Assembly (NCBI GenBank): GCA_013821455.1
Contig: JACDGS010000030.1
Coordinates: forward strand, 1-53,380
DNA: 53,380 bases
DNA from: Chthoniobacterales bacterium
GTDB lineage: Bacteria > Verrucomicrobiota > Verrucomicrobiia > Chthoniobacterales > UBA10450
Direction of reading: 5' to 3'
Shown here: piece by piece, positions 12,043 through 39,882 of the stretch
Layout: each line of letters opens with the position of its first letter
How positions within the stretch are numbered: position 1 is the stretch's first letter
Notes under the pieces: generated by a model
Told to the model about the DNA's origin: nothing
The model's database searches: none
What the model saw: the letters and a program-made list of their open reading frames with translations, nothing else
Made by a program: the position numbers and the translations under genes

Positions 12043-12453
12043 ATGAAATCAACTCTTCACTTCGTCGCTTCTGCCTGTGCTGCCGCTGTTATTTTCTGCG
12101 CGCCGGAAATCGCTTCCGCGAAAGGCAAGCAAACTCCAACTCCTTCACCGACCGCTGCCGCTTCCGTCTCGGCGACGGTCGCGAGAAGTCGGGCGATTCC
12201 GTTCCGCGGCCAGGTTCTCTCGGTCGATATCGCGGCGAAAACATTCTCCGTCGGCAAGAGAACTTTCCACGTCACCGACCAGACGGTGATCACCGACAAC
12301 GGCGCACCGGCCAGGATTTCGGACATTGTGCCGGTCGAGGCGGTGACCGGTTCCTACTGGAAAAGGGATGGCGGCATGCTGGAAGCGAAGACGGTGAAAA
12401 TTGGCGCGAAAACTCCTGAGGCAAAACCTACGCCTAACGAGTCGCCCAAGTAA
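12043..12453 (+). CDS. Small secreted protein, DUF5666-like
   Basis: This is a 136-residue exported protein. I place the start at 12043 because a signal peptide begins there (MKSTLHFVASACAAAVIF, cleavage after ASA). A Thr/Pro/Ser linker follows, then one small beta-rich domain (FRGQVLSVDIAAKTFSVG ... ITDNGAPARISDI ... GMLEAKTVKIG) resembling DUF5666-type OB-like domains. The C-terminus ends in a charged Pro tail. Its last codons contain one arm of an inverted pair of the repeated 9-mer; the other arm lies just after the stop. Function unknown. Confidence 0.7.
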   Translation: MKSTLHFVASACAAAVIFCAPEIASAKGKQTPTPSPTAAASVSATVARSRAIPFRGQVLSVDIAAKTFSVGKRTFHVTDQTVITDNGAPARISDIVPVEAVTGSYWKRDGGMLEAKTVKIGAKTPEAKPTPNESPK

Positions 12454-12466
12454 CATTCGTTAGGCG
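12431..12466 (+). terminator. Inverted pair of the iterated 9-mer, terminator-like hairpin
   Basis: CGCCTAACGA (12431-12440) and its perfect complement TCGTTAGGCG (12457-12466) form a 10-bp stem with a 16-nt loop spanning the stop codon of the small secreted protein. No strong T-tract follows directly. In Neisseria and Haemophilus, uptake sequences often occur as inverted pairs that double as terminators; this arrangement is the same. Confidence 0.65.
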
Positions 12467-12542: not shown

Positions 12543-13970
12543 TCAACCTTCCTCGGCTGCACGCAGGGCGACGCGAAGGTCGGCTAGAAAGAGCGCATAT
12601 TCGCGGTCACGCGTTTCTTCATCCGGCTGCCGCAGGAGCGAGGACGGATGCACGGTGGCGACGACGCGCGGTGCGAATTCCGATTCGAGAATCTGCCCGC
12701 GCTCGCTAGTGACACGAAAAGATGATCCGAAGATTGCCTGCGCCGCGGTCGCGCCGAGACAGACGAGGACTTTTGGCCTAACGAGTCGTAGTTCTGCTTC
12801 GAACCAGGGACGGCAGGCGGCGATGTCGCGCGAGCTGGGCTTCTGATGGATGCGGCGTTTCCCGCGCGGCTCCCATTTGAAATGCTTCACCGTGTTCGTG
12901 ACGTAAACCGTGTCGCGATCGATGCCGGCTTCTTCGAGCGCGCGATCGAGGAGCTTGCCGGCCGGGCCGATAAAAGGTTTGCCGCTGAGATCTTCCTGGT
13001 CGCCCGGTTGTTCACCGAGGAACATGAGCGTCGCGTGTTTCGGTCCTTCGCCGAAGACCGTTTGCGTGGCGTTTTTGTAGAGTGGACACGCGGTGCAGCC
13101 ACGCGCGGTTTCGCGCAGAGTCGTTAGGCTGGCTGTTTCCGGGACCGAGGCGGGATGCCATGCATCGTCAGGTGCTATTTTTTTCGCGGCGCTCTTTTTC
13201 ATCATCGTCTCAACCCGGCGCGGCGCGTCGTGGAGGAGTGACGGGATGAGCGTGGCCTCCGGCAGATTGCGCCAATATTTCTTCGGCATCTCCGCCTGCA
13301 TTGCGCGCACCTTTACGCGGGCCGGGTTGAAAATGTTCGCGTAGTAGGTGCGCCAAAGTTCCTCCATCCGATCCGCGCCGGGCGCTTCCGAACGCGGCAC
13401 GCCCGCAGTGAAGGAAAGATTGTTCCCATCCCAGTGCGCGCAACGATCAGGCGTGAGAATGGACCAGCGCATCGAGGCGAAACGATCGGCAAAGAAGGGC
13501 GCGTTCTGCTCGACGATGTGGTGCGCCGGCTCGAACCAAGCGACAAACCATTTTTCGCCGGCGTGCTCTACTTCGCGAAAACGGACGAAGGCGCGCATTT
13601 TGTGAATGTCGTGCCTGACGGATTTCTCAAAATCAGTCGCCTGTGCGACGTCGGGATCGACCACGATTTCGAGCAGATGCGTTTCGCCGTGGGTGAGCCG
13701 CCAGAGGAGGCGGTAGAGGAGCGGCCAGCGACTCGCCTCACGATGGAGCGCGACCAGTTTCGCCAGCGCGAGGAACCGCTTCGGCACGGGGAATTTCGGC
13801 GCAGGTTGGGATTCGTTAGGCGATTCGGCTTCTTCGAAAAGGGAGAGCGCCGGCGCGTCCTGGCCGATTTCTTCCCAGGCAATTTGCTCGGGCGAAATTT
13901 CGCTTTGCAGAGCGCGGCGCGCGGCGACCTGCCAACGCGCAAATGTCGGGAGGAACGAGATTTGTTCCAC
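12543..13970 (-). CDS. TIGR03915/DUF4130 domain fused to UdgX-family uracil-DNA-binding protein
   Basis: This is a 475-residue fusion. The N-terminal half (about 1-240) looks like the DUF4130/TIGR03915 domain linked to a radical SAM partner. The C-terminal half (about 285-475) is a family 4-like uracil-DNA glycosylase fold with the UdgX signatures GEQPGDQEDLSGKPFIGPAG and KRRIHQKPS. In characterised UdgX the His in KRRIH bonds covalently to the site where uracil was removed. The tail has the motif VATVHPSSLLR. Cysteines (CTACPLYKNA and others) could ligate the 4Fe-4S cluster typical of these enzymes. The start is GTG at 13970, five bases after the upstream radical SAM gene, so the two form an operon. 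Likely role: uracil or deaminated-base handling in DNA. Confidence 0.88.
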   Translation of the reverse strand: MEQISFLPTFARWQVAARRALQSEISPEQIAWEEIGQDAPALSLFEEAESPNESQPAPKFPVPKRFLALAKLVALHREASRWPLLYRLLWRLTHGETHLLEIVVDPDVAQATDFEKSVRHDIHKMRAFVRFREVEHAGEKWFVAWFEPAHHIVEQNAPFFADRFASMRWSILTPDRCAHWDGNNLSFTAGVPRSEAPGADRMEELWRTYYANIFNPARVKVRAMQAEMPKKYWRNLPEATLIPSLLHDAPRRVETMMKKSAAKKIAPDDAWHPASVPETASLTTLRETARGCTACPLYKNATQTVFGEGPKHATLMFLGEQPGDQEDLSGKPFIGPAGKLLDRALEEAGIDRDTVYVTNTVKHFKWEPRGKRRIHQKPSSRDIAACRPWFEAELRLVRPKVLVCLGATAAQAIFGSSFRVTSERGQILESEFAPRVVATVHPSSLLRQPDEETRDREYALFLADLRVALRAAEEG

Positions 13971-25942: not shown

Positions 25943-26038
25943 AGCTATTGCCGCGCATTGCGTCCTAGTATCTCGTAACACGCTCGGTGGCGTTGCTCAC
26001 AGACGCCTAACGAGTAAAGAACAAAGCCAACACTCGTT

Positions 26039-35737: not shown

Positions 35738-35793
35738 GGGACAAGCGCTGAGCGCACGGGAGCGCAGCGTCGAGTCCTTTACTCGTTAGGCTA

Positions 35794-38638: not shown

Positions 38639-39882
38639 TTCTTCTCTCTCATCCCACGGCGAATCAAAACGTCCGCCAGACCGCTCTTGCGCTGGCAGAC
38701 GCTGATTTGCTCGGAGAGTTTTGGACCTGTGTAAACTGGCGCCAGGGAAGCGTGCTGGATCGTTCGTTAGGCACGATGAGCCGCATTCGCAACGAGCTGC
38801 GCCGACGTTCCTTTCCGGAAAAGCTGGCGCCGTATCTGCATACCTATTCGTGGCGGGAATGGGGCCGCCAGTTAGCCGGCCAGGCAGGATGGAAGAGCCT
38901 AACGAGAGAAGAACACGGTTTGTTCAGTGTGGACGCGATCTATTCCTCGCTCGATCGGCGGGTGGCGCGTCGGCTAACTCAAGCCGCTAACTTTCGCGCG
39001 GTGTATGCCTATGACGCGGGTGCGCTTGAGACCTTTCGCGAGGCGAAGCGACGCGGCTATAAGTGCATTTACGAACATCCGATCATTTACTGGCGGAAAG
39101 TGCGCGAGCTTCAACGCGAGGAAGCGGAACTGCATCCGGAATGGGCGCCGACTTTGGGCGCGCTTGCGGATAGCGATGAAAAACTTGCGCGCAAAGACGA
39201 GGAGCTATCGCTGGCCGATCTGGTGATTACAGCGAGTAGTTTTTCCAGGGATAGTCTCGCGGCTGCCCCTTCTCTCCACGCCCCGGTAAGAGTGATTCCT
39301 TACGGGACGGATTCCCTGGGCGAAAAAGCTCCGCCTAACGAGTATAAGACTAAATTACGTGTCCTCTTCGTCGGTTCGCTTACGCAGGCTAAAGGATTGG
39401 GTTACTTGCTCGAAGCGGTCGCACAACTTAAAGGCGAAATTGAACTCACCCTTATCGGTCGCCGAGTAAGCGATAGTATTCCCAGCCCGGCGCTGCTCAG
39501 CACCTACCGCTGGATTCCTTCTCTTCCCCATGGCGAATTGTTAGCAGAGATGTCCCGTCATGATGTGCTCGTTTTGCCATCGCTCCATGAAGGGTTTGGC
39601 CTGGTCATGAGCGAAGCGATGAGTCAGGGCCTGGTCGTGATCACGACGCCAAATACCGCAGGCCCGGATCTGCTCACCGACGGCGTGAACGGGTTTCTCG
39701 TGCCGATTCGTTCCGCCGAGGCAATCGAGGAAAAACTGGCCCTTCTCACCCGGGAGCGCGACCGTCTCATCGCGATGCAACAGGCCGCGCGCGACCGAAC
39801 CGCCGCCGCGACATGGGAAAATTATCGCCAGGGCATCGTGCGAGTGGCACGAGAAGTGATGGAGAAAGGGGAAACGGCATGA
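38635..39882 (+). CDS. Glycosyltransferase, GT4
   Basis: This is a 415-residue GT-B enzyme starting with GTG at 38635, overlapping the previous stop. The N-terminus is ILLSHPTANQNVRQTALALADADLL. The C-terminal domain has RVLFVGSLTQAKGLGYLLEAV and the donor motif VLVLPSLHEGFGLVMSEAM, with Glu and Gly in place. The middle (KCIYEHPIIYWRKVRELQREE) is charged and helical, like GT4 enzymes acting on long lipid-linked acceptors. Three exact copies of the 9-mer lie inside (38764, 38897, 39333). The stop overlaps the polymerase start (ATGA). Confidence 0.9.
   Translation: MILLSHPTANQNVRQTALALADADLLGEFWTCVNWRQGSVLDRSLGTMSRIRNELRRRSFPEKLAPYLHTYSWREWGRQLAGQAGWKSLTREEHGLFSVDAIYSSLDRRVARRLTQAANFRAVYAYDAGALETFREAKRRGYKCIYEHPIIYWRKVRELQREEAELHPEWAPTLGALADSDEKLARKDEELSLADLVITASSFSRDSLAAAPSLHAPVRVIPYGTDSLGEKAPPNEYKTKLRVLFVGSLTQAKGLGYLLEAVAQLKGEIELTLIGRRVSDSIPSPALLSTYRWIPSLPHGELLAEMSRHDVLVLPSLHEGFGLVMSEAMSQGLVVITTPNTAGPDLLTDGVNGFLVPIRSAEAIEEKLALLTRERDRLIAMQQAARDRTAAATWENYRQGIVRVAREVMEKGETA

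Follow-up and report, generated by a model that had tools for sequence, protein, structure and literature searches.

The nine-base word GCCTAACGA is massively over-represented in the genome of this Chthoniobacterales bacterium, and we favor its interpretation as an uptake-type self-recognition motif that would be kept by biased uptake and recombination. In the window (the whole stretch of 53,380 nucleotides that was analyzed), two inverted copies form a hairpin across the stop codon of a small secreted-type gene (Table 1). The first-pass annotation had described this inverted 9-mer pair, its 10-bp stem and 16-base loop correctly, and had taken it for a terminator of the kind known from uptake systems and hence as support for uptake. 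That inference from the hairpin is not supported. The hairpin is likely a pair of independently placed copies of an abundant motif with no special terminator role, and the motif itself most likely works like the DUS of Neisseriaceae and the USS of Pasteurellaceae. The uptake reading is well supported by motif density, use of reading frames, conservation at orthologous sites, motif deserts and clade restriction, while its supposed support from the hairpin falls to pair counts, the missing U-tract and relatives that lack the pair.

According to a 2025 paper, Neisseriaceae and Pasteurellaceae are still the only known families that select self DNA through a short sequence (PMC12616744), and the motif rather than the hairpin is therefore the interesting object. 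No description of an uptake motif in Verrucomicrobia was found in the openly licensed literature. We think it somewhat more likely than not that a soil Chthoniobacterales family evolved its own uptake self-recognition independently of those two families. In this reading, GCCTAACGA and AAGATCGACA prevail in different genera, at least one species (G166) has both, and inverted-pair terminators do not belong to the system. If so, this would be a third case of self-DNA uptake, from a distant phylum, and one that offers a graded series of motif abundance across a family as well as two unrelated words. The causes of uptake-signal evolution, the way signals switch and the receptor that reads them could then be tested independently in abundant soil bacteria mostly known from metagenomes, and inverted-pair terminators would be a side habit of some systems and not a property of uptake motifs.

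Table 1. Positions of the features discussed, in window coordinates unless a genome and contig are named.
Feature	Position	Strand	Remark
GCCTAACGA, 70 exact copies	1225-53366 (first start to last end)	both	includes both hairpin arms
Small secreted-type protein, 136 aa	12043-12453	+	signal-peptide-like N-terminus
Left arm CGCCTAACGA	12431-12440	+	9-mer GCCTAACGA at 12432-12440 plus one paired C
Loop, 16 nt	12441-12456		contains stop codon TAA at 12451-12453
Right arm TCGTTAGGCG	12457-12466	-	second motif copy at 12457-12465 plus one paired G
DUF4130 + uracil-DNA glycosylase fusion protein	12543-13970	-	convergent neighbor of the small gene
Copies with the extension, examples	35783-35791 (-), 39333-39341 (+), 26005-26013 (+)
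Motif-free stretch, 25 kb	G000:C56 88.0-113.0 kb		lower GC; expected number of such gaps ~0
Motif-free stretch, 12 kb	G000:C62 82.8-95.2 kb		lower GC; expected number of such gaps 0.0004

Abundance, placement and conservation of the motif

The copies in the window (36 on the plus and 34 on the minus strand) compare with 0.42 expected. Across the 4.30-Mb genome the motif occurs 2,306 + 2,299 = 4,605 times, or about once per thousand letters and 75-fold enriched, and the reversed word occurs 33 + 29 = 62 times. In a 450-kb sample, GCCTAACGA is the most over-represented 9-mer of all, with 557 copies against 3.4 expected under a trinucleotide model.

Gene context was determined in 845 kb of the genome, in which 770 genes were called with our own simple hexamer-model caller. 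Motif density is 1.03/kb in coding sequence and 2.89/kb, 1.51/kb and 0.79/kb in convergent, tandem and divergent intergenic DNA, respectively, and rises about 4-fold, to 4.0/kb, in the 30 nt past stop codons. The motif contains stops of its own, TAA in the sense direction (GCC-TAA-CGA) and TAG in the antisense direction (TCGT-TAG-GC), and one or the other serves as the stop codon of 43 + 37 = 80 genes (10%). All four stop-free coding placements are used (222, 199, 197, and 134 copies), and between 15 and 19% of each of the rare codons TTA, CTA, and AGG lie inside the motif. We rejected a coding artifact on two grounds: the motif is placed in four ways over the two strands, and it accepts rare codons. 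Sense and antisense copies are about equally frequent, and the motif therefore acts at the level of DNA and not as an RNA signal.

Copies of the motif are also kept in place. Syntenic relatives were located through the DUF4130/uracil-DNA glycosylase neighbor of the small gene, and the two nearest are Chthoniobacterales MAGs (L099 and L100) with 85 and 82% protein identity at that gene. Of the aligned motif sites, L099 keeps 12/16 (14.8% for all 9-mers), L100 keeps 8/13 (11%) and G344, at a greater distance, keeps 3/11 (7.6%), a small sample of 40 sites. The stretches fetched from G383 and G458 (same genus) and G379 (another genus) gave no alignment to our sample of the genome. Two long stretches are free of the motif altogether and of lower GC (Table 1). 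They encode glycosyltransferases, nucleotide-sugar enzymes, a HepT/nucleotidyltransferase pair and a NusG-like protein (L020, L021, L026), and their composition and content suggest that these polysaccharide islands are foreign or recently acquired.

A motif acting on DNA, with an AC core (positions 6 and 7) so intolerant that mismatched copies number 0–1 against about 2–5 expected while other positions tolerate some change, could also be the target of a DNA methylase or of an abundant DNA-binding protein unrelated to uptake. However, such sites are not usually 75-fold enriched, and conservation between orthologs despite a price in rare codons is not usual for them either. We regard this explanation as unlikely.

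As a short, non-palindromic, highly over-represented word spread genome-wide, the motif could also be a recombination or segregation signal of the Chi, KOPS or parS kind. Chi and KOPS sites are likewise short over-represented oligomers, but they are polarized with replication. In contrast, GCCTAACGA lacks polarity with either replication or transcription: at separations between 100 bp and 50 kb, copies share their orientation with a frequency of about 0.50 (in samples of contigs, not a closed chromosome), and sampled stretches of 50 kb or more show no strong strand bias. Absence from the polysaccharide islands would likewise be unexpected for a Chi site. A Chi- or KOPS-type role was rejected on the missing polarity, and a signal of this general class is very improbable.

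The inverted pair at the end of a small secreted-type gene

The left arm of the hairpin lies in frame and encodes P-N-E close to the C-terminus of the small protein, which has no match to a Pfam family, and the right arm begins 3 nt past the stop codon. The stem is a perfect 10 bp, the 9-mer pair being lengthened by one C-G pair, and the convergent fusion gene ends 90 bp from the small gene. Paired DUS and USS have been reported as rho-independent terminators, and pairs selected for that function would account for several features of this place: the RNA fold is strong (-21.7 kcal/mol, z -5.5), the pair sits between two convergent genes, and single copies of the motif are dense in just such intergenic DNA. 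Several observations nevertheless stand against a terminator. First, a scan with a terminator consensus found nothing at the pair, and the stem is followed by GAGGAGAGCGGG on the plus strand and by GTAGGTTTTGCC on the minus strand, neither of which is a U-tract. Second, neither of the two nearest syntenic relatives has the pair, since L099 carries no motif copy at the corresponding place and L100 carries one. The hairpin is thus a lineage-specific juxtaposition. L100 has a different hairpin near this place, GC-rich and with an adjoining homopolymer run.

Finally, the genome-wide counts run against selected pairing. The first-pass annotation had named the lack of an excess of inverted pairs over motif density as evidence against its interpretation and had proposed to see whether such pairs cluster just after stop codons; neither an excess nor such clustering was found. 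From motif density, 35.7 convergent and 35.7 divergent pairs with a gap of 2–30 are expected in the whole genome, and 30 and 32 were observed, so inverted pairs are not enriched. Direct pairs of the same gap number 127 against 71.5 expected (1.8-fold) and exceed the inverted total of 62 (about 71 expected; P = 2.6e-6 against equality). Among 15 convergent pairs inspected, nine are intragenic, four touch a stop codon or follow one within 40 nt, and two are in other intergenic DNA; none of the 15 has a U-tract. It is single copies of the motif, and not pairs, that cluster after stops. With 36 plus-strand and 34 minus-strand copies, density alone would place one or more convergent pairs with a gap of 2–30 in the window with a probability of 0.49. 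The terminator was therefore rejected on pair counts, gene context, the missing U-tract and missing conservation, and we give such a function very little credence. On the favored reading, two copies would simply have fallen close together at a gene end, where the motif is readily tolerated and its density is about 4-fold higher.

Comparison with known uptake systems

Published descriptions of DUS and USS (PMC2397512, PMC3630211, PMC2346458) report thousands of copies, strong conservation of sites, absence from genes of recent acquisition, a preference for permissive sites and for gene ends, and dialects. GCCTAACGA matches these systems in every tested respect except inverted pairing. In copy number and density it is similar to the DUS of Neisseriaceae (about 1,900 DUS 10-mers in N. 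meningitidis; PMC3630211), with which it also shares the absence of strand polarity, one frame that contains a stop (PMC3630211), conserved sites and dialects between genera. DUS sites are highly conserved and DUS are absent from recently acquired genes (PMC2397512), a possible counterpart here being the motif-free islands of putatively recent acquisition. Like the USS of Pasteurellaceae, GCCTAACGA has a 9-bp core with weak flanks, occurs in hundreds to thousands of copies and is biased to gene termini (PMC2346458), and long, weakly conserved flanks are likewise seen around AAGATCGACA in G166.

Differences are also apparent. Both sequence and phylum are unrelated to those of the Neisseriaceae system, and two unrelated motifs occur here within one family. 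DUS are read by a receptor of the ComP (minor pilin) type, whereas the receptor of GCCTAACGA is putative. The sequence of USS is unrelated as well, and its core AAGTGCGGT is free of stops, whereas GCCTAACGA carries TAA in sense and TAG in antisense. Finally, inverted pairs, a common though not an essential trait of uptake sequences, are reported in high numbers in DUS and USS genomes (PMC3630211, PMC12616744), and GCCTAACGA shows no excess of them, a comparison that rests for the known systems on published statements. Because the tested features fit the published ones in all but this last respect, an uptake-type self-recognition motif is favored.

By analogy with these systems, we infer that GCCTAACGA is bound by a receptor, favors uptake and is subject to molecular drive. 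A receptor of the competence machinery would prefer DNA bearing the motif, so that fragments which carry it would enter the cell and be integrated by recombination at a higher rate, and over generations this bias would enrich the motif at sites where it is nearly harmless. The uptake machinery itself is probably there, because ComEC (PF03772) was found in this genome and in 31/31 genomes of the family tested, and PilM-type genes (PilM_2 matches) were found in this genome. ComEC is also widespread in bacteria without such a motif, and its presence is therefore not discriminating. A search for a putative receptor, which covered the GspH minor-pilin family (PF12019) alone, gave no match. A study of soil bacterial populations, with Verrucomicrobia among the bacteria covered, reported ongoing homologous recombination tied to ComEC loci (PMC7305173).

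Distribution in Chthoniobacterales and a second word

The survey of the motif covered 197 genomes from the order and 288 from the phylum. Only one family of Chthoniobacterales (f1) has high counts of GCCTAACGA, with 696–2,306 copies per strand in the genus of the present genome, 933 in G166 and 1,095 in G379, and with the other members of the family graded down to background. Elsewhere in the order, counts are 0–22 per strand.

A second, unrelated word, AAGATCGACA, reaches 2,314 + 2,339 = 4,653 copies in the 2.9-Mb genome of G166 (L036-L045), which thus carries both. It is found in hundreds to 1,500 copies in genera g159, g154, g161, and g163 and parts of g155, all of family f1, and is near background (19–29 copies) in the genus of the present genome. 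Around a rigid 10-base core, its flanks in G166 are weakly conserved to about 20 bases, and convergent pairs are not in excess there. A second unrelated motif in sister genera, with both together in G166, is unusual and counts against the uptake reading.

The flanks of GCCTAACGA are weakly T-rich at the left, with a weak T two bases past the core. In our sample of the genome, 60 of 1,013 copies (about 6%) run on into the first bases of a common extension, GCCTAACGA-GTAWARGWCT, which is rare in the sampled relatives. This shared extension could recall a mobile repeat family (REP or MITE) of which the motif copies were remnants, but no flanking position outside the 9-mer carries more than 0.18 bits of information, on which ground that origin was rejected. 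A longer common unit is also absent, and coding sequence holds 74% of the copies, in every allowed frame, which leaves such an origin scarcely credible.

Two further observations concern other genomes. A variant, GCCTAACAA, is enriched in G187, G190, G199, and G628 (genus g38, of the same class but another family), with about 290–376 copies per genome against 28–51 of the reversed word, a hint that a distant family has a related motif. In 60 kb of G317 (L059-L061), words around GATCGTACAGTTC are over-represented (15 against 0.2 expected); either a repeat family or a further motif may underlie them.
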